Below are positions 27,613 to 42,775 of a stretch of 64,000 bases of DNA, piece after piece (the stretch's first letter is position 1; each line of letters opens with the position of its first letter). The notes beneath the pieces were generated by a model. The model was given only the letters and a program-made list of their open reading frames with translations. It was not told the DNA's origin and searched no databases. Source of the DNA: Ligustrum vulgare (lineage: Eukaryota; Streptophyta; Magnoliopsida; Lamiales; Oleaceae); assembly GCA_963555705.1 (NCBI GenBank), contig OY743168.1, positions 92,606,925-92,670,924 on the forward strand. The letters are read 5' to 3'. The position numbers and the translations under genes were made by a program.

Positions 27613-30600
27613 TTAAGATGTTTTTAACCCCATCCTACTTGATGTGGTCCTCACTAATTCCTTTGTGAGTGGTTTTGTTAGTGGATCCGCTAAATTATCA
27701 CTTGATTTTACATAAGTGATTGAAATTGTTCCATCTTTGATCAATTTCCTTACATAGTCGTGTCTTAGACTAATATGTCTAGACTTTCCATTGTATACTG
27801 CATTGTAAGCTCTTTCTAAAGTGGCTTGACTATCACATAGTATAGGAATAGAATTTAAATTCTTATCTCCTATTGGAATTTCATACAAGAGATCACTTAA
27901 CCACTCAGCTTCTTTTTTGACTTCTGCCAATGCTACAAATTCGGATTCCATTGTTGAGTGTGTTATTCATGTTTGTTTCTTGGATCTCCAAGAGACTGGT
28001 GCTCCTCCAAGAGTAAACACCCAACCTGAGGTGGATTTATTCTCACCTGTACTAGATATCCAACTTGCATCGGTAAATCCTTCTAGGATTGCCGGAAACC
28101 GGGAATATTGGAGACCTATATCTTTGGTTTTCTTTAAATAACCAAGAACTCGTCCAATTGCCTTCCAATGTTCCTTACTTGGGTTACTAGTAAACCTACT
28201 AAATTTACTAACTGCAAATGCTATATCTGGTCTAGTACATTGGACCGCATACATTAGAGATCCGATAGCACTTGCATATTCAAGTTGTGCTATTGCTCTT
28301 CCATCATTTTTTACAAGTTTAATACTTGCATCTAATGGGGTGTTTTCTTCTTTAATGTTCAAATGTTTGAACTTATCAATCACATTCTCAATATAATGTG
28401 TTTGATTAAGCATAAAACCCTCATTTCTTCTTGTGACCTTGATACCTAATATGGTATCCACTTGCCCAAGATCTTTCATTTTAAATGTGGAAGATAGAAA
28501 CATTTTTGTTTCATTTATGTCTTCCATGTGATTACTTATGATCAACATATCATCCACATAAAGGCATATAATCACAACATATTTTTCATGTTCCTTCGAA
28601 TATAAGCAATTATCAACACTATTGTGTTTGAATCTAAATGACATAATTTCCAAATTGAACTTCTCAAGCCAATTTTTCGGTGCTTGCTTTAAACCAAATA
28701 ATGATTTAACTAATTTGCATACTTTCTTTTCATTTTCGGGGAGAACAAAACCTTCAGGTTGTTCCATATAAACCTCATCATCAAGGTCCCCATTCAAGAA
28801 AGGTGTTTTAACATCCATTTGGTGTATATGCAAATCATAAATGGAAGCTAAGGCAAACATTATTCTTATAGATGTAATGCGTGCCACGGGTGCATATGTG
28901 TCAAAATAATCTATTCCTTCCTTTTGTCGATATCCTTTGGCTACTAGTCGAGCTTTAAAGGTATTAGGAGTACCATCCGCATTGTACTTCTTTCTAAATA
29001 CCCATTTACACCCTATAGGTTTAGAGCCATTTGGTAAATCAACAAGTTCCCAAGTATTGTTAGACATTATTGAATTCATTTCATCTTTTATAGCATCTTT
29101 CCAAAAAATACTATCTCTTGATGACATAGCCTCTTTATAAGTTTTAGGATCCGTTTCGATTTGCAGAACATATGGTGTTGTTCTAATGACACTCTTTATA
29201 TTTCCTTCAATAAGATAAAAGAGAAATAAGTTGATAGTGTATTTCATCCGGTCCTAATACTTTTTCTTTTCGAGTTCTTTTGCTTCTACGAAGTTTATTA
29301 GGATCATTAACACCTTTAGAGGATGTTTCTTCAAATGATCTTGTAGAGTTTGGAATCTCTTTATTTGATTCCTTAATATTTTTATCCGAAGATAAAGAAT
29401 CCTCAAATAACTTTACTTCTCCTGATTCAATTATCACATTGGCCTCCAAATTCAATAATCGATATGCTTTACTATTTGAGGCATATCCAACAAAAACACA
29501 TTTGATCCCTCTTGGACCAAGTTTTGTTCGTTTAGTATCGGCGTTTTTGCAATAAGTAAGACACTCCCACACTTTGAAGTAACCAATATTTGGTTTTCTT
29601 CCTTTCCATAATTCATATGGAGATACTTTTGTAAATTTTGAAGGAACTCTATTTAATATATGACATGCACTATGTAATGCTTCACCCCAAAGATTAAATG
29701 GCAATTTAGAATATAACAACATTGCATTAATCATTTCAACAAGTGTCCTATTTTTTCTTTCCGCCAAAGCATTTTGTTCGGGTGTTCTAGGTGCACTACA
29801 TTGATGAATTATGCCATGTTGTTCACAAAATAAGTTAAAATCACTAGAGAAGTATTCACCTCCTCTATCACTCCTAAGAATTTTTATTTTCTTATTCAAG
29901 TGATTTTCAACTTCATTTTTATATGCTTTGAAAGTTTCAAAAGTCTCATCCTTATGTTTTAATAAATAAACATAAGTAAATCTAAAACAATCATCAATAA
30001 ATGTTATGAAATATCTATTTCCACCCCTTGTTAACATACCATTTAATTCACATATGTCGGTATGCACAAGATCTAATAATTGATTTGTTCTAGTTACACT
30101 ATGAAAATGTTTCTTAATCATCTTAGATTCTACCCAAGTCTTGCATTTATAAATTTTGTTTTCATCATAAGATATTAAGTCACACATTTTCATTCTTTTC
30201 ATAGTATTATTGCCTATATGCCCTAATCTACCATGCCACAAAGTAAAGGAGTCAAGCATATAAGCAGAATTCACTTTATTCATATTTTTATTGTCAACGG
30301 TATACAGTTTGGCCATTCCATCACAAGAATAGGCCTTTCCAACAAAGATCCCATTACGGGATAATACAAGTTTACCGGATTCATAAACACTTTTGATTCC
30401 AGGTTTTCCCAAAAGATCACCACTAACTAAGTTCCTATTCATGTTCGGAACATGGAATACATTAGTGAGAGTAACGATTTTTCCGGATGTGAAGATGATG
30501 TCTACATGTCCTTTTCCAACCACTTTGGAGCGGCCTTCATTACCCATGTGTATTTCATGTCCATCTTCCAAGTCATGATAAGTTTTAAATAAAGACTTAT

Positions 30601-31555
30601 CATAACACACATGTATGGTGGCACAAGTGTCATACCACCATCCTTGAACCTTTCCTTTTATAGTGTTGACTTCACATATTGTAGCCACGATGTTGTCATC
30701 TTCAATGGAGTTTATTTTATGTTCACCATTGGATTTCTTCTTATGCCTACACACATTGGCCCAATGACCAGATTTTCCACAAATATAGCATGGCCCCTTT
30801 GGTTTTGGTTTAAACTTCCCTTTGTCCTTTTTGGGACCAAGGGGATTAAACTTTTCCTTGTTGGAGTGTTCGGCATTTTCAATAGCATTTGCTTTTGATT
30901 TTGCTTCATAAGAATTCTTATTCTTGTCCCTCATTCTCGATTCTTCTTCAATGCGTAGATGCTTTTGTAATCGTTCCAAAGTAAAGTCTTCGGAGTTATG
31001 AAGAATCTTCTTCCGGTATCCTTTCCAAGCACTTGGAAGTTTGGCAATAATTGCCCCCACTTGAAAGGATTCCGGGAGTTCTATTTTGACCGCTTTCAAT
31101 TTGTTGACAAGTACTTGTAATTCATGTACTTGAGGGAGAATATGAATATTGTCCAAAAATTTAAAATTAAATTTTTTTGTGATTAAAAATTTCTTGGTAC
31201 CTTCTTCTTCCGCCTTGTATTTGTTTTCCAATTCGTTCCAAATATCTCTTGCCGAAGAAGTGTTGATGTAGAGATCATATAACCGGTTCGACAAAGCATT
31301 CAAAATATGTCCACGACATATTAGTTCATCCTCTTGTCTTTTCTTCCTCTCGGCCCTTATTGCCTCCGTGTCTGTCTCCATTGGTTCCGCTAAAGGTTCC
31401 AAATCCGGATCCAAAATGTAGAAGATCTTCAATGCGGTGAGTAGAAATTTTAACTTGTCTTGCCAACGCGTAAAGTCTGTTCCATCAAATCTATCGAGCC
31501 TCACAAGATCTTGGTTCATCAATTTGATAGTTGCAAGAGTCGTTTCATTCTCCAT
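27613..31555 (-). pseudogene. Copia 1 gag-pol polyprotein, one frameshift and one stop
   Basis: Start ATG at 31555 (MENETTLATIKLMNQDLVRL). Order: gag (WQDKLKFLL region), zinc knuckle C-Y-I-C-G-K-S-G-H-W-A-N-V-C, protease region (WWYDTCATIH), integrase (GHIG..., then APRTPEQNALAERKNRTL), reverse transcriptase ([23 protein letters not shown]), RNase H (DSQATLERAYN, KSRHISLRHDYVR). The frame to 29207 and the one from about 29247 differ by one base, so there is a frameshift between integrase and RT. At 27967-27969 a TGA interrupts SKKQT-stop-ITHSTMESEF where related elements have a sense codon, commonly Cys. Otherwise the domains are well preserved. Confidence 0.93.
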
Positions 31556-31573
31556 GGCAATATAGTTTGAGAT

Positions 31574-32228
31574 TGTTGGAAATATGGTGTAGGAGAATGA
31601 AGAAAATGATAAAAACAACAATAATTGATGAAGGAAATATAATGCTCAAACACGTAAAACACGTTGTCCTCAAACTATATTTGCGCCCACCGGGATCAAG
31701 TTTGCTTTTGGGATTATTGCAAATAGGTTTGTAGGATTAATCAAGTCTTCCCTTCAGGTTCAAACAAAGCAAAATAAGAACTTGAAATAAACAAGAACAC
31801 TAAAATTGGAAATGAAGAAATGGATATTTTTTTGGACATCAATCTTTGATGTAAGAATGTTTTTCAAGTGTCTTGGAATGAAATAAGATCACTTATTTAT
31901 AGATATCCAAACACCAATCACGAATTGGTGCCATCTTTCCATGAAAATGTGAAATGTTTCTCCAAAAGGTGCCAAATTCAAACAATTAACGGTCAAAGTT
32001 TTATACCGTGCGACCGCGCGGTTAAATCATCGCGCGGCCGCGCGGTTCTACAATAAATTACACGTCAAAAATCGACGTGTGGCCACACGATTTTTGTATC
32101 GTACGGCCGCGCGGTTATATATTTGATGCCACCTTTGATTTTTTCATTTCCGTTTCTTTTTAAAATCATTCATTTATTTATCATTAATCATTTTAAACAC
32201 ACACACACACACATATATATATCCAACA
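31574..32228 (-). repeat. 5' LTR of copia 1, 655 bp
   Basis: TG..CA ends in element sense (TGTTGGATATATATA at 32228, TTTCCAACA at 31574). Contains an (AC)n(AT)n tract near its outer end and a CpG-dense palindromic block at about 32003-32115. No obvious tRNA-iMet primer site follows it (ATCTCAAACTAT instead of TGGTATCAGA). Confidence 0.92.
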
Positions 32229-35130: not shown

Positions 35131-36000
35131 GTGGCTTTCAGTTGACAACCACACGTTTTTGAATTGGTTGTAAACCTTTTGATTGGCAGGCCAATTTTTT
35201 TATTTTTATTTTTTTTCTCTAGCTTGGGCGTGAATTTTAGGGGGCCGGGGGAAATTTTTTTTGCACTAAGCTCCTTTTATATGGTAATAATATAAGAATA
35301 AGAATAAGATATAAGATAAGATATATAAGATATAAGATAGGTAGGAATAAGATAAGATATATATTAATATATAAGATATAAGATAGGTAGAAATAAAAGC
35401 TTGGAAGGAAGGATGGTCTATATTGAAAATTAGACACGAGTAACTTTATTTATATTCACCTCTTATATAGGTCTTTTCCTTCTACCTTTAAACATTTTCA
35501 TTTTGTAGCCATTTATAGATTCAAGATATCAAAATCTGTAGTGCATTTGTTCTCTCTTTACTTCTCAATAACTCATTTTACCTTAAAAATATAAATAAAT
35601 CATTTATAATTATTACAGTAAACAGAACCAAATGTCAAATAAATTACTTTAAAACTCATTTATTACCTTCTCATTTTATTACGCCAAGCACCAAAATGTA
35701 AACTCAATGTTATAAACAAACCATTTAAGATAAGAAAAAGAAAAAGAAAATATTTCATATATATAGAATTAATCTGTTTGTACATCCCATTTGTCCAAAT
35801 TGATTTACCAATGATGTGTTGGAGATTTGATGGCTGTTGATTTAGAAGATAGTGTAATGGAAGAAATATATATATATGTATATATATATATAGAGGTAAC
35901 GTGCCCCAATTTTCTCCACATGTAGCATTAATTTGGAAGAATCATAGATATTCCATCATTATAAAGACTTCACGATAATGGTTGATAATTATTTATTTTT
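35131..36000. other. AT-rich stretch with GATA/AGATAT repeats
   Basis: 35275-35400 holds a low-complexity AAGATATAAGATAGGTAGRAATAA repeat (two clear copies). (TA)n is at about 35868-35893. No gene. Confidence 0.5.
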
Positions 36001-36235
36001 TGTTGTGAAACTATCAAAATTCTAAACACAAGAATTAGAGAGAGATTGAGAACTAGAGAGAAGGAGGAGAATTCTTTCTTGATCAAGAATTGGTGTACAA
36101 ATTCAAGGAATTCCTACCTCTATTTATAGGGAAGGAAAAGTCATTCATATCAATTATTTACAATATATATTGGGTGGAAATTAGGTATAAAATTAGTGGT
36201 GGATTTCTTAATAATTTCCATAATTATTTATAACA
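36001..36235 (-). repeat. Left (3') LTR of the 36-kb element
   Basis: Matches 42354-42588 with only a few substitutions (for example AAGGAATTCC against AAGCAATTCC). Followed to the right by CTCCCCCTTGAATG, the complement of the polypurine tract. Confidence 0.93.
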
Positions 36236-36267
36236 CTCCCCCTTGAATGACTTATTGCTCAATAGCT

Positions 36268-37082
36268 CAATTGTCTGCCTCGTTAAAACCTTGCTAAGAA
36301 AACCCAGTGGGATAAAACTTGAGCGAAGGAAAAAGAGTACAGCTGCTCCCCCTAATGTTGGTCATCATTAATCATTGAGTCTAATATCCAAAATGACATC
36401 AATGATAAGTAGTACAAATCATGTACTGGAAACTTCGAATTATGAAGTGCTGAAGTGTTTCATTGCTTTATTGCTTCAGTGCTTTTAGTGCTTTAGTGCT
36501 GCCTTGCTTTAGGTCTTTAGTGCTGCCTTGCTTTAGGTCTGCCTCGTTAAAACCTTGTCGGTAAAACCCAATGGGACAAAATCTGAACGAAGGAAAAAGA
36601 GTACAGCCGCTGCCTCGTTAAAACCTTGTCAGGAAAACCCTGTGGGACAAAAACCTGGACGAAGGAAAAAGAGTACAGCATGATTCTCCCCCTGAAGTGT
36701 GCAATCAAGTATTCATGAACCTTTTGAATAATGATATCATCTTTCGTCTGGAATATGTATATATGAAAATCTTCTTGTGTGTAGCCAATATCATAACATT
36801 CTTCATAAGATGTCTATGATTTTCTTCATTTGTTGATATCATTCCAGCACAATTTAAAGAGAGAGCTTGTTGTTGAATTATTACTTGCAGATAGCTGTGA
36901 CAATGTCTCAAAAACCTTGCTAGGAAAACCCTGTGGGACAAAACCTTAGAGAAGGGAAAAAGAGTACATTATTCTCATTGATACGCCATAATTGTTCCAT
37001 AATTGCTGCCTCATTAAAAACCTTACTAGGAAAACCCTGTGGGACAAAACCTCAGTTAAGGGAAAAAGAGTGCAGTGCGTAT
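36268..37082. repeat. Five copies of a 70-bp 3'-UTR repeat
   Basis: CTGCCTCGTTAAAACCTTG, (A/C)GGAAAACCC(A/T)GTGGGA, CAAAACCT and GAAGGAAAAAGAGTACAG recur from about 36270, 36540, 36611, 36905 and 37009. Between the first two copies lies a TTTAGTGCTGCCTTGCTTTA-type microrepeat (36420-36535). This repeat is common near the 3' end of plant copia elements. Confidence 0.88.
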
Positions 37083-39179
37083 TTGTTCCCTTCATAGGAA
37101 TATCATAAGTATATTAATGCAATCTCAAATCATTTCATCAAACATATAGTTTGTGATGAACTTTTATAAGTAGTTTATAACTCATTTATAATGTCATAAC
37201 TCATTTATGATGTATTGAACATGCTATACCAAGCAATGTTTAGTTAGTTAACTGATTGCATTACTCAAATCTAGAATTGATTCACTTCTATCAAAATCTA
37301 GAATTTGTTCTGATGAATAATTAAATATTCATTTTCAAATTCACTTCTAGTGAATATTCATTTTCCGATGGATAATATAATTTTGCATATTGAAAATCAA
37401 TTGCATGCCCAAATATTCAAATATAATAATAGTACACTCCAATTTCATTTTCAACATATTATATTATGGGGTTATATGTATCATATCATTCTTCATGTGA
37501 TTTTATTTTAAGAATCACATTTCATTCTATAATTATATTATTTTTGGGCAAATTGAATCTTTCAATGATTTATACATGTACGTTCTTGCACTTTATAAAC
37601 TGCAATTTCTAATTTGTAGGAGCATAATCAATCATTGAAATAGATATCAATTTCGACATATAATCTATAATCATTTAGCTTGAAATCCCAACGTACCGCG
37701 ATCAACTGGTACATCAAAGAAAACTCCCAAAGTACCGAGATGAGAATCACACTTTTTGATCTCACTCATTGGTATATCAAAGAGCTCAAACTAGTGAATG
37801 TAGACTATAGTCTATCCACCATATTTCATGCCAGTTTTATGAAAAATTTTGGGCACAACGAGTCGTCTTTTACGACTGTGAAATATTTTTCATTTGTACA
37901 TATAATTACTGGCTTTACACATTTAAGTGTTTTGGACTTCAGGACCTATAACAAAATCCCTACATTGGGATTTTATACTTGGCCAAAGTATTATAATTTT
38001 ATCAACCTCATTTTCATAAGAGGGTTGTATGTATGCAGTCGACTTATTTATCGATTCCATTTTATATCATAATATAGAGAGATCTCTTTATATTTTTATC
38101 ATCAGGCCTGAATCTCTTACATTTAGTTATATCTCTTTTACTCACCATGAGTATTTATCCTCAAATGGATCATTTCCATTATTCAAGAGATATTTGTTTT
38201 TGGAATCGATTGTCATTATGCTTCAGACATAATTACGCTTTCAGCTTGATCACGCTTCATGCGTGTTATTGTTTAATTTCCCCATAATATTCAAGAATCT
38301 TGTATTATATCAGTCGGCTAACAATGCCGCAACACATGTCATATGTAATTATGGATATAATCACAATATTATATATAAGTGTGTTTTGTTGGAGTGTATA
38401 TAGATATCGCACTTTTTAGAAATCATAAAGCTTTACAAGCTAATCTTTATTTCATCTTATTGACATGTTTTTATGTAAAATATTGCTGCATAAGAAATAT
38501 TTATATTCAAATTGTTCTCATAGCAAATAACTTGAGGCTTTTAACCTGCTAAATCATTAGCAATATAATATTCTATTATCTCAACTAATTCGTAAAATCA
38601 TTAATGACTTTAAGATATATTCATGCTAGCATTTATTACTTTGCTCGTAATATCATTACTTGAGCAAATAATCAGTCATTCATTTTTTTAGTGAGATAAT
38701 TAATTTGCTTTTCAGAACAAGCAGCAATGATAACTTGTTAACCTGAACAATCTTCTGGTTCTTTAATGAATGCCATTTTGCATTCTCAATAAATCTCATT
38801 ATTGAATTGGAATCTAACCAATCATTATAGAACTTCTGGTTTAGCAAGATATTTCATTTGTACATATGTATGAACTTCTGGTTCAATACAGTATTCATTT
38901 AATCAGTACGTATTTCTGTATAGTTCAAATCAGTATACTTTTATTACTTTTAGTATATCGAAAAAATCAGGTACAATATCCAAGAAAATATCTCATGATC
39001 TCAATCTTGTTGTCAAATCTTCCCTTATTTCGAAAAAGGTAATGACGCATTATCTCATTGTTCCCACCTTTTTAATAATTTATTCCATTATTTCTTGATG
39101 GAATCGATATTGCTGACACGCGGAGCGCTCCTTTACGCGTTTAAATATATCATTTGGGAAGGGATTAGATCCATAAAAA
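37083..39179. other. Internal AT-rich region of the 36-kb element
   Basis: No gag-pol remnant recognised. A 130-codon plus-strand frame at 37680-38072 has no similarity. Short recurring phrases AACTTCTGGTT and AATCATT occur through 38570-38930. It could be 3'-UTR-like filler or decayed captured DNA. Confidence 0.4.
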
Positions 39180-39704
39180 ATGGATGTTATATTATCAAAT
39201 ATTCGCAAATATTATTCTAATCTTCCGGTAAATGTTTTGAAAAAGATTTACCGAGTTCGACTTGAAAGATTGAGGCTGTTAATGGATCAAGGCTTTCCAG
39301 AAGATGTTCGTTGGTTGATCGAAGCAAAAGTTCGATTAGCTGGTGAATTACCAGATTCATTTTCTAAACACATGCCTGGTTTAGGTAAGAGTACTTTTAC
39401 AAAGAAACGAAGAGCAAAAAGGCTGAACGGTTGTTACAAATGTGCTCGTTGGACATGTGATACTCGTTGCAAATCAGTAGGATATTCTTCTAGAAATCGG
39501 GATGATAAAATCGATTTCATTAAGGGTGGACTGAGTAAGGAGTCATTGGATGATATCCGATTAACTCTTGAGACGCACCCAAGTGGGTATGTGCAACGTG
39601 AACTCCTTTCCTTATATGCTCAATTTAACGAGGATAAAAATCGTTATAGTCTTGAAAATATAGTAGCAAAAGATCCTGTTTGCCAGGCTGTTAAAAAACA
39701 ATGA
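39180..39704 (+). CDS. Antisense ORF: basic Cys-rich protein resembling plant-virus nucleic-acid-binding protein
   Basis: Intact 174-aa ORF, ATG after an A-rich leader (CATAAAAA), TGA stop. Residues 1-60 look helical and charged. Residues 69-81 are a Gly-Lys-Ser then Lys/Arg cluster (GKSTFTKKRRAKR). It is followed by C-X2-C-X4-C-X3-C (Cys 85, 88, 93, 97) and then DDKIDFIKGGLS. A G(R/K)S-basic run-Cys finger-FI..G order is the layout of the small 3'-proximal nucleic-acid-binding/silencing-suppressor proteins of carlaviruses and vitiviruses (Betaflexiviridae). The C-terminal half (ETHPSGYVQRELLSLYAQFN) is extra. Assignment is by pattern only; a plant or retroelement origin remains possible. It lies 301 bp upstream of the LOG-like ORF, in antisense to its host LTR element. 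Confidence 0.6.
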   Translation: MDVILSNIRKYYSNLPVNVLKKIYRVRLERLRLLMDQGFPEDVRWLIEAKVRLAGELPDSFSKHMPGLGKSTFTKKRRAKRLNGCYKCARWTCDTRCKSVGYSSRNRDDKIDFIKGGLSKESLDDIRLTLETHPSGYVQRELLSLYAQFNEDKNRYSLENIVAKDPVCQAVKKQ

Positions 39705-40005
39705 TGTTTTGGCTATGCAGCATTAATATAAGGTAAATCATTTGATATATTGTGTGTATATATTTGCACATAAAATATTTTCATATTTCATTTCTCGAGT
39801 ATTGATAAAGTGTTTTGAAAAATCACCGAAAGGTAAGCTTTATCAAAAGTAGTGTAATTTAGTCAGAATTAGGTTTTCACTTTTTCAAAAGATGAGCAGT
39901 AAATAGTGAAGTTTTTCAAGTTTAAAAAGTCAATGATTTTCACAGTTTCATGCATCCCAAAATATCATTTTCTTCATAATTTTTTTCTTCCTTATTCTCT
40001 CAAAG
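39705..40005 (+). other. Spacer between the two antisense ORFs
   Basis: AT-rich 301-bp spacer with no ORF. A pyrimidine-rich TTTTTTCTTCCTTATTCTCTC lies just before the LOG-like ATG and could be a leader of a captured cDNA. No clear TATA box in a convincing position. Confidence 0.4.
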
Positions 40006-40572
40006 ATGGAAGGACCAAAACTTCGACAGATCAAAACTATCTGTGTATTTTGTGGATCAAAAGTAGGAAAAGGTTTTGGGTATCTAGAAGCAGCCGTGGA
40101 TTTAGGAAAGAAGTTGGGTGAGAAAGGTATCACTCTCGTGTATGGAGGAGGTAGCAGTGAATTGATGGGTTGTGTTTCCCAATCTGCTCAAGCAGAAAAA
40201 TCAAGAGTGATAGGTGTTATACATACTCCTTTAGCTGATATCACAGGCAAAACACGAGGGCATGAAGTACAAACCTTATCTATCCATGAACGCATAACTT
40301 GCATGTTATATGGTTCTGATGCCTTCATTGCCATGCTTGGAGGTTTTGGTACTTTAGAGGAAATCTTTAATATTACCTCCTGGGCTCATTTAGATCTCCA
40401 TACCAAGCCTATTGGGCTTTTAAATGTTAACAATTTCTTTGATGGTTTGCTAACATTTCTTGATTATGCTGTGGAACAGGGATTCATCTCTCCATTTTCT
40501 AGGAGAATCCTTATTTCTGCTCCTACTATCGAGGAACTGCTGGATAAGCTGCAGGCATATATCCCCATATAA
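40006..40572 (+). CDS. LOG-like cytokinin riboside monophosphate phosphoribohydrolase, intronless
   Basis: 188-aa intact ORF. LOG enzymes release active cytokinin bases from riboside 5'-monophosphates. Family landmarks: ICVFCGSKVGK (12-22), LVYGGGSSELMG (44-55), VIGVIHTPL, DAFIAMLGGFGTLEE (105-119), TSWAHLDLHTKPIGLLNV (124-141), EQGFISP, ISAPTIEELLDKL. The catalytic motif PGGxGTxxE reads L-G-G-F-G-T-L-E-E: Glu119 and the glycines are kept, but Pro is replaced by Leu111. The HxRK motif is H-E-R-I, so Arg96 is kept and Lys is lost. Host LOG genes have several introns, so this looks like a retrocopy or captured cDNA. It is slightly shorter than usual (about 200-220 aa). The start is the first ATG, in good context (AAAGATGG). 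Activity is uncertain because of the motif changes. Confidence 0.85.
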   Translation: MEGPKLRQIKTICVFCGSKVGKGFGYLEAAVDLGKKLGEKGITLVYGGGSSELMGCVSQSAQAEKSRVIGVIHTPLADITGKTRGHEVQTLSIHERITCMLYGSDAFIAMLGGFGTLEEIFNITSWAHLDLHTKPIGLLNVNNFFDGLLTFLDYAVEQGFISPFSRRILISAPTIEELLDKLQAYIPI

Positions 40573-40654
40573 GATCCAGCAGAAGTTAAGATAGATTGGT
40601 CGCAAGGAAGGGGAATTAAGTGAAAATGGAGTCCGGTTAATGTAAACTTAACTT

Positions 40655-40880
40655 TGTGAACCCTAGAATAGATGGTGGTAGAGTACGGAGTATTCTTACT
40701 CTTGAGACACACCTTAAATTTCTAGGATTTTATCAATGTTTAATATTGTGTACCTCAAAGATAGGTGGTAGAGTACAGAGTATTCTTACTCTTGAAACAC
40801 ATCTCTTTGAGTGTTTCTTTATGTCCTCAAAAGTTCAGAGGTGGTAGGATACGGCTACTCCCGAAACACATCTCTCATTT
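40655..40880. repeat. Three tandem copies of a repeat after the LOG-like ORF
   Basis: GGTGGTAGAGTACGGAGTATT then CTTACTCTTGAGACACA recurs at about 40674, 40766 and (degenerate) 40850, period 80-92 bp. Confidence 0.8.
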
Positions 40881-42353
40881 TGAGGATCATAAATGTTTCC
40901 TCCCTTTTGTATGACTTGTTTTATGCTTCTTCAGGAGCAATAATAATATCATTTCAGCATATGATAATTTTTACTTATTCTGGTATAAATATGTACTTCT
41001 TCTGGAATACATAATTGCTCGTGCAAGAACTTTTTCAAATACTTATCATCTAATATTCATCTCATAATATACTGATGAGATTATTTTCACATTAGCTATG
41101 TCCATGCTATCATGTGATATTATCTTATCATACATCAACATTCTCTTGTTGAATAATTCATTTTTCATCTATCTTTTCAATACAGATAATGGTAACTTTT
41201 GGTACCGTTTGATAAAATATTTTTATTAACATTTATCAACTTCTTATCAATATTTACCAACTTTTGGTAATGATAACTTCCGGTATCATTTGATAAAATA
41301 TTTTCTAACTTTAGTATTGATAACTTCTGGTATCATTTAATGAAATATTTAATAACAATAATATTGTATATATATTAACAATAATAATACTGGGGTTTTA
41401 CCACCACGTATATATGTTGAAAACATCCTCTAATATGTTAGAATTAACCAACAACTGAGGTGTTTCTGAAATAATATAAAACTTGAATATACGTAAAGTA
41501 TTCCGTAAACCGACCATATATGCGGTGTCTACATAATGAAATAATTATCTTTCATGAGTGAGCGAGTCATATCCTCCAGTCAAGGTATTCATAATAGTGA
41601 TCAAGTCATATCGTCAAATCCAGTCAAGGTATAGTGATCGAGTCATATCGTCAAATCCAGTCAAGGTACTCATAATAGTCCAATCCGTTGTGATATAAAT
41701 TCAGTCCATAATAACTCAATCCGTCACGGTATGACAATGATTATTTTTAATTATACTTTGTTTAAAATCTTTAATTTATCTTGTTGATCACATATTAATC
41801 GTTAATTTTCGATTAATTTATTTTGGTCCGAAGTTCAAAATCCCGTCGGAAGTGCTTCAAAAACGGTTTTTAAGAAAACCACCACGTTCGATCGCCGGAA
41901 AATCTCAAAACTGCACAAAACAGAAAAGTAAGATCATAGAAAAATCAAGATCGTCGATATGAACAAACTTCCTGTTGACGTCGTCGCCTGATTCCGCCGC
42001 ACGCGCCGCCTTGACGTCTGCGCGTGGTCTTCACGCGCCTCACGCGCCGCCGCGTCGGTTCCGGTGACGTCGACACGCGCCGGTTCGGAAGAATCGTCCG
42101 GTCTCCGTGGTCATGGATCTGGTCTCCGATCATCATTTGGATATACGGTTTGGCGTGAATTTGGTTTGGAAGTTTCGGATTACACAATTTCTTCAATTTT
42201 TCTATGTATTTGGAATTGATCTTCTAATCTATGATGTATAAATGATGATTAATAATAATCTGGTTTCTGATACAGAGGTTCATCATTTAGATGCAACTGT
42301 AGAGCATACTCCCGTCATATTACTCAATAGGCTAGAGGCTCGTGCTGATAACG
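40881..42353 (-). other. 5' untranslated half of the 36-kb element
   Basis: Contains short repeats ACTTCTGGTATCATTTGATAAAATAT (41200-41350) and three copies of ATCGTCAAATCCAGTCAAGG (41600-41670). A GC-rich zone with many CGCGCC motifs is at 41990-42090. The minus-strand primer-binding-site region CGTTATCAGCACGAGC ends at 42353. No gag start could be identified. Confidence 0.5.
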
Positions 42354-42588
42354 TGTTGTGAAACTATCAAAATTCTAAACACAAGAATTAGAGAGAGATT
42401 GAGAACTAGAGAGAAGGAGGAGAATTCTTTCTTGATCAAGAATTGGTGTACAAATTCAAGCAATTCCTACCTCTATTTATAGGGAAGGAAAAGTCATTCA
42501 TATCAATTATTTACAATATATATTGGGTGGAAATTAGGTATAAAATTAGTGGTGGATTTCTTAATAATTTTCATAATTATTTATAACA
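42354..42588 (-). repeat. Right (5') LTR of the 36-kb element
   Basis: TGTTGTGAAAC to TTTATAACA, 235 bp, near-identical to the left LTR. Confidence 0.93.
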
Positions 42589-42775
42589 TTTTTCGTTTTC
42601 TCCCCATTCTTTGTTCTATGCTTTTTTTTTTTTCCTAGGGTGGGCCAACATAATTTATTAAACTTGGGATAATCCAAAAGTTTGAGATTGATCGAAGAAT
42701 TTCCCAACATGCCTTTCTATCACAATATACTGTGAACAAATGCTCTATTTTTTAAAGTCAAAGTTAAAAAACCTT

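Follow-up and report, generated by a model that had tools for sequence, protein, structure and literature searches.

LARD, TRIM and other non-autonomous long terminal repeat (LTR) elements have LTRs, a primer region and a polypurine tract without a working gag-pol, and to our knowledge selected accessory open reading frames (ORFs) are not known in LARD/TRIM elements. Here, we describe an element with the same LTR, primer and polypurine layout, located at 36001-42588 of a 64,000-nucleotide stretch of the genome of Ligustrum vulgare (assembly GCA_963555705.1, contig OY743168.1, positions 92,606,925 to 92,670,924 of the forward strand; below, the window), and the family to which it belongs. Like LARD/TRIM, it is devoid of gag-pol, but its family differs from them in keeping selected ORFs: an antisense cassette of two genes, one encoding a protein similar to viral nucleic-acid-binding proteins (NABP; ORF1), and the other a protein similar to plant LONELY GUY enzymes (LOG; ORF2).

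Antisense ORFs in plant LTR elements and LOG genes in plant gypsy elements are already in print, as far as the accessible parts of the reports go (PMC7264820, PMC11963269, PMC9289625). The antisense frames of Grande, RIRE2 and Retand TRP28 are described there as kept in most copies of their families (PMC7264820, PMC11963269), and the cassette studied here likewise consists of antisense ORFs conserved in most copies of a plant LTR family. However, the Grande, RIRE2 and Retand frames are situated between pol and the 3' LTR in elements with gag-pol (some of them incomplete) and resemble no known virus gene, whereas in our element gag-pol is absent and both antisense genes belong to named families. 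The same parts of these reports refer to the origin and function of such ORFs as unknown. Ty3/gypsy elements of Citrus and Populus were reported to carry an additional gene with a LOG-family domain (LOG/YgdH) (PMC9289625). That survey was based on reverse transcriptase (RT) markers and concerned gypsy elements only, whereas here the element is RT-less, and its LOG gene is antisense and paired with an NABP gene; in the accessible part of the survey neither an NABP, nor the pocket change and the tail described below, are named for the gypsy elements. A literature search, in which most subscription papers were beyond reach, retrieved no report of a retroelement NABP, of an NABP-LOG pairing, of the LOG tail with the altered pocket, or of an RT-less family with an accessory cassette under selection. 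Two papers were found to mention Viral_NABP (PF05515) or Carla_C4 (PF01623), and judging by their titles both deal with genes for methylglyoxal detoxification.

The Cassette Is Shared by a Large Family, without gag-pol in the Copies Read

The window element belongs to a high-copy, non-autonomous family of plant LTR retrotransposons, of which it is a slightly decayed copy. Protein searches of the genome (1.385 Gb, 51 contigs) provided 8,794 first-look candidates for NABP and 9,239 for LOG; 150 candidates for each protein were scored, and all 150 matched in both cases. Exact 22-mers from the two ORFs occurred genome-wide 2,025 times (NABP) and 2,270 times (LOG), and their reversed controls did not occur at all. 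At the first 100 NABP places on contig 1, the LOG word was found 3' on the same strand in 69 cases, mostly 902-976 bases away, and in no case on the opposite strand within 5 kb.

We read 32 further copies, 26 of which were picked by an ORF match, either through the protein matches (19 copies, L013-L032, with L023 and L024 representing one copy) or through the NABP 22-mer (7 copies, L039-L045, read over the cassette region only). The remaining 6 (L033-L038) were picked by nothing but the LTR-primer junction. Both genes, or at least their traces, were present in the same order and orientation in all of them (32/32), including those picked by the primer region (6/6). We scored a frame as intact if it began with Met and its end deviated from the family length by no more than 2 codons. 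By this measure, 23 of the 32 copies have an intact NABP, 22 an intact LOG, and 18 have both, but the set is enriched for good copies; the respective numbers for NABP and LOG were 2 and 3 among the 6 primer-picked copies, and 3 and 2 among the 7 copies picked by the NABP 22-mer. An LTR pair was found in 21 of the 27 stretches examined, with a perfect 5-bp duplication in 18 of the 21 and with identical LTRs in 6. In the youngest copies, the LTRs are identical and the ORFs are intact; the family amplified recently. Its subfamilies diverge more in LTRs than in ORFs.

In 11 copies of several subfamilies, the window element included, no stop-free frame of more than 151 codons was present in the element sense, and none had the gag and pol of an autonomous element, nor an RT or integrase that would place it in the Ty1/copia or Ty3/gypsy superfamily. 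Their long frames were both antisense: NABP (175-193 codons from stop to stop) and LOG (211-244 codons). The sizeable coding capacity of the family is limited to the antisense cassette, NABP followed by LOG.

The preliminary description of this locus, prepared from the sequence of the window alone, proposed a search for other copies sharing the LTRs and the ORFs, and other copies do have the cassette. It also envisaged that other members could carry gag-pol in place of the cassette; these were looked for in the 11 copies and were not found. A one-off or chimeric copy, including one arising from chimeric assembly, is ruled out by the thousands of copies that have the cassette in common. Of the two origins suggested at that time, a non-autonomous element with the two genes fits the data, while retrocopies that landed in one gutted element do not, as both genes are a constant component of a family with thousands of copies.

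Certain matches were arranged in tandem. Regularly spaced LOG matches were seen at C2:24821734-24846566 (spacing of 6132, 6132, 6132 and 6050 bases), C17:243997-256293 (5966 and 5944 bases) and C11:32533948-32548484 (7082 and 7068 bases); perhaps they represent elements sharing LTRs. At C1:55459975-55467003, five NABP copies follow one another with a spacing of 1629 bases, which is shorter than the element.

Both Frames of the Cassette Are under Purifying Selection

The ratio of nonsynonymous to synonymous substitution rates (dN/dS) between copies, the comparison suggested in the preliminary description, was well below 1 between subfamilies: 0.20-0.21 for NABP (dS 0.43-0.44) and 0.12-0.13 for LOG (dS 0.17-0.20). 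Within the older subfamily, it was 0.24 for NABP and 0.26 for LOG. A codon model gave an omega of 0.194 for 21 unique intact NABP sequences and of 0.245 for 16 LOG sequences, and omega = 1 fitted worse by 43 and 34 log units, respectively (omega was scanned at fixed values, with kappa of 2, 3 and 4). The same could be seen when the window copy was compared with a single copy of the family, L031: changes at the first, second and third codon positions numbered 17/8/43 in NABP and 7/5/26 in LOG, and one deleted base in NABP was the only gap in either frame. In the comparison with a near relative, L021, the NABP changes were 3/0/7. Taken together, these results demonstrate that both cassette frames are under purifying selection in the family.

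The dS values between the two main subfamilies (the window copy against L029-L032) were unequal for the two genes (about 0.44 for NABP and 0.17-0.20 for LOG), which hints at recombination between subfamilies inside the cassette (39180-40572).

The LOG-like Protein Differs from Canonical LOGs in Its Pocket and Tail

ORF2 matched PF03641 with an E-value of 1.9e-31 and 109.4 bits (cut-off 27). The element LOGs share with plant LONELY GUY enzymes (AtLOG3 and its kin) the fold family, the PGGxGTxxE region, and the catalytic Arg and Glu, but differ from them in the replacement of two pocket residues, in a basic LxLxL tail, and in forming a clade of their own. In a tree of 52 rows, 30 element-type LOGs formed one clade (99/96) that included neither AtLOG8 nor any of the 20 canonical LOGs, although the bootstrap of this tree had not fully settled.

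According to the accessible part of the study of CgLOG (PMC4979012), whose residue numbers we use, the cytokinin-specific pocket of LOG comprises Met96, His97, Lys100, Glu125 and Trp129, of which Lys100 and Glu125 line the adenine and prenyl pocket. Catalytic Arg99 and Glu122 were both kept in 112 of the 120 element-type LOGs, and in all rows from this genome (20/20). In contrast, Lys100 and Glu125 were both replaced in 118 of the 120 element-type LOGs and in none of the 120 canonical ones, which kept all four residues. In this genome, Ile and Asn occupy the two positions in 20/20 rows, and the cytokinin-specific pocket is not retained.

The C-terminal ends differed as well. Among element-type LOGs of at least 195 aa, LxLxL was present within the last ten residues in 87/112 (vs. 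0/120 canonical), and a basic cluster within the last 22 residues in 99/112 (vs. 1/120 canonical); 8 of the 120 element-type rows, shorter than 195 aa, were left out of these counts. The element-type rows are related to each other (the 112 rows form 24 clusters at 70% identity, 15 of them with LxLxL), and the canonical control (P0241-P0360) forms a single cluster at 70% identity and is therefore narrow. We infer that the tail may combine an EAR motif (the TOPLESS-binding LxLxL) with a nuclear signal. Intact copies of this genome mostly end with IKRKWSPVNVNLTL or IKRKWSPVNVNLSL, which is a VxLxL form. A scan of IMG/VR for LOG relatives found none.

The NABP-like Protein Resembles Cysteine-Rich Proteins of Plant Viruses

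ORF1 matched two Pfam families above their cut-offs: Viral_NABP PF05515 (E-value 6.8e-8, 33.2 bits, curated cut-off 23) and Carla_C4 PF01623 (E-value 7.4e-5, 23.1 bits, cut-off 20.9). Zinc-finger cysteines and a basic patch, also shared with the carlavirus/allexivirus cysteine-rich proteins, were each present in 110 of the 120 listed NABP relatives. Unlike the viral proteins, the element NABP is longer (181 aa), is carried by a retroelement, and has a conserved C-terminal part, from about residue 121 onward, which lies outside the Pfam match. The four best BFVD matches of its predicted structure were all viral NABP-type proteins, with E-values of 0.56-4.0; none reached 0.001, and the model (mean pLDDT, the confidence score of the prediction, of only 59.8) was too poor to settle ancestry. 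No NABP relatives were found by scanning IMG/VR or PLSDB. In the accessible parts of the respective reports, carlavirus cysteine-rich proteins are described as suppressors of silencing (PMC12172455; PMC8742542), and CVB p12 additionally as a transcription factor that causes hyperplasia (PMC12172455). The motif TTTAAATA was located 40-42 bases 5' of the NABP start in all copies of this genome inspected for it (6/6).

Relatives of Both Proteins Occur in Other Plants

The best 120 of 276 NABP relatives and the best 120 of 805 LOG relatives were listed. The listed NABP relatives (51-91% identity) include proteins of Orobanche, Striga, Populus, Acer and Xanthoceras, and the listed LOG relatives include those of Diospyros, Populus, Reevesia, Primulina, Melia and Orobanche. 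In other plant families, relatives equal in length to the family proteins were found. Since relatives exist in other eudicots, the cassette genes are not recent captures; of the two possibilities that were raised initially, recent capture or maintenance, it is maintenance in the family that agrees with the data. Three Orobanche gene models (P0014, P0020, P0112) fuse NABP and LOG pieces, and 2 of 19 long NABP contigs were equal in size (8,723 and 4,511 bases) to one of 20 long LOG contigs, which suggests, if only indirectly, that NABP and LOG are linked also in other plants.

A contig of 3,330 bases (DAIEQH010000041.1, L046), filed in GTDB under a metagenome-assembled genome (MAG) of Nomurabacteria, contains an integrase frame (H2C2, rve) followed by NABP in the sense orientation. 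It is apparently plant retrotransposon DNA contaminating this MAG. We take the integrase to be of gypsy type, and so in another plant NABP would occupy the env position of a gypsy-type element, as opposed to its antisense position in the RT-less element described here. No LOG was found in this contig with five LOG and NABP queries. A splice-acceptor-like TTTCTCTGCAG 5' of NABP (1651-1661) and a G-rich polypurine-like stretch 3' of it (2601-2610) were also noticed in L046; its NABP may be expressed, env-like, from a spliced RNA.

Organization of the Element in the Window

The features of the window element are listed in Table 1. It is recognizable as an LTR retrotransposon by its nearly identical direct repeats, which have TG..CA ends, and by the short duplication of its target site. 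Its LTRs, 235 nt each and 99.1% alike, begin with TGTT and end with AACA. A GGGGGAG tract (minus strand) touches the left LTR and the primer region touches the right one, which indicates that the element reads leftwards. The primer region is conserved among family copies; the primer word at the LTR junction occurs 243+247 times genome-wide, and its reversed control 0 times. The longest stop-free frame of the internal region in the element sense has 92 codons, and both long frames are on the opposite strand. The preliminary description of this copy was thus accurate in part: the near-identical 235-bp LTRs, the minus-strand orientation (with five copies of the 58-nt repeat), the absence of gag, integrase and RT, and the two opposite-strand ORFs, NABP-like and LOG-type, assigned by the Pfam matches given above. 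It erred in regarding the two ORFs of this copy as intact. Neither is: ORF1 has 174 codons with an altered end, as compared with 181 in the family, and ORF2 has 188 as compared with 217, so that the C-terminal tail is absent here.

Table 1. Features of the LTR element in the window
Feature	Position	Strand	Basis or remark
LTR element, whole	36001-42588 (6,588 bp)	-	LTR pair and target duplication
Target-site duplication, left copy, TTTTT	35996-36000	.	Read from the sequence
3' LTR, TGTT..AACA	36001-36235	-	LTR comparison
Polypurine tract, AAGGGGGAG in the element sense	36236-36244	-	Read from the sequence
Five diverged copies of a 58-nt repeat	36284-37074	-	Repeat search; present also in family copies
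GC-rich block and TTTAAATA (39140-39147), 5' of the NABP start; candidate antisense promoter	39115-39147	+	
ORF1, NABP-like, antisense to the element	39180-39704	+	174 codons in this copy against a family length of 181
ORF2, LOG-like, antisense to the element	40006-40572	+	188 codons in this copy against a family length of 217
41-nt repeat, two copies, 93% alike, downstream of ORF2	40674-40804	+	Repeat search
Putative primer-binding region adjoining the 5' LTR	42340-42353	-	Read from the sequence
5' LTR	42354-42588	-	LTR comparison
Target-site duplication, right copy, TTTTT	42589-42593	.	Read from the sequence

Rfam and tRNA scans of the window gave no hits. Elsewhere in the window, a Ty1/copia element with two long frames and with gag, integrase and RT domains is present at 27967-31621 (minus strand); it is without the primer word of the studied element and is not evidently its donor. 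A 168-nt tandem repeat occupies positions 77-1497, with about 6.4 copies at 77-1151 and longer related arrays up to 1497-1518.

Discussion

Our best explanation, in which our confidence is tentative and somewhat short of even, is that of an RT-less LTR family whose antisense NABP-LOG cassette acts on the host, with gag-pol supplied in trans. An autonomous LTR element would provide gag-pol and mobilise the element RNA. The cassette would be transcribed from its own internal promoter, counter to the LTR transcript, to give two nuclear, host-directed proteins. The predicted role of NABP would be to dampen RNA silencing as a nucleic-acid-binding protein of the nucleus; pairing between sense and antisense transcripts could supply the production of small interfering RNAs. 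For the LOG-like protein, we propose a nuclear phosphoribohydrolase with a changed specificity, which would act on nucleotides or on transcription and would recruit a TOPLESS-type co-repressor through its basic LxLxL tail. Jointly, the two proteins might make the cell more permissive to transposition, and the selection on both of them suggests that they may help the element to spread.

Several observations weigh against this explanation. In all 20 rows from this genome, the phosphate-contact Ser19 is changed to Lys and Met96 to Ile, and because both residues are lost, the enzyme activity of the LOG-like protein appears doubtful in this genome. Its tail here is VxLxL rather than strict LxLxL. 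A gag-pol partner was not found, with only six primer-picked loci read. It is not obvious how a product acting in trans would benefit the copy that encodes it. In the youngest group, the dN/dS ratio for NABP was 0.80, based on 12 nonsynonymous and 4 synonymous changes over 10 pairs, which are too few for a judgement. The LOG frames of the window copy and L021 differ by 5/6/4 changes at the three codon positions, without an excess at the third one, a pattern that would be as expected for a copy decaying after insertion. Finally, some non-coding stretches show as much conservation as the ORFs do (93-98%), so that conservation is no proof by itself, whereas the codon pattern is.

A rarer, autonomous gag-pol master carrying the cassette is a serious rival, if a rather unlikely one: selection would act in the master, and the 6-kb copies would be its passive deletion derivatives. 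The occurrence of LOG/YgdH in Citrus and Populus gypsy elements that have RT, as given in the accessible part of the report (PMC9289625), the position of NABP behind an integrase in L046, and the higher frequency of intact frames among the youngest copies than among others all speak for it. However, none of the 11 copies of several subfamilies has gag-pol, the RT-less cassette layout is seen at every locus chosen solely by the primer region (6/6), and the gypsy NABP of L046 is in sense, whereas the cassette is antisense. That NABP instead works in the service of the element, acting as an RNA chaperone or a substitute for the nucleocapsid, with the LOG-like protein as a bystander or in a moonlighting role, seems quite unlikely to us. 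Its zinc-finger cysteines and basic patch, so common among the listed relatives, and the lack of a gag would suit such a role, but the gene is antisense, so that the NABP mRNA is not the packaged RNA, a donor capsid would be needed all the same, and LOG is under selection too.

A cassette that is merely passive cargo, with captured frames open only since the copies are young, is very unlikely. Old copies are indeed broken, as seen among the copies picked by the primer region (NABP intact in 2/6, LOG in 3/6) and by the 22-mer (3/7 and 2/7), but the codon tests disfavour such cargo: dN/dS is well below 1 between subfamilies at dS of 0.17-0.44, and the fit drops by 43 and 34 log units at omega = 1; same-length relatives in other plant families disagree with it as well. 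Domestication, in which the plant would retain the genes for its own use, we reject as the main reason, considering it extremely unlikely: some relatives carry annotations of ordinary genes, such as LOGL10 in Diospyros and Populus, but what we see is thousands of dispersed copies with target duplications, and not one conserved gene.

The explanation based on a host-directed cassette with gag-pol supplied in trans could be extended to a broader one, which is speculative and, in our estimation, improbable as a whole. It assumes an effector cassette, composed of a virus-like silencing suppressor and a LOG rebuilt as a nuclear, TOPLESS-recruiting phosphoribohydrolase, which would be common to gypsy and RT-less elements across eudicots and selected for reprogramming the host as pathogen effectors do. 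The cassette genes belong to named families, the selection on them has been measured, and they lead to specific predictions, namely silencing suppression, a changed substrate, and co-repressor binding. Surveys that depend on RT markers, such as that of PMC9289625, judging by its accessible part, would miss RT-less elements that carry selected genes.

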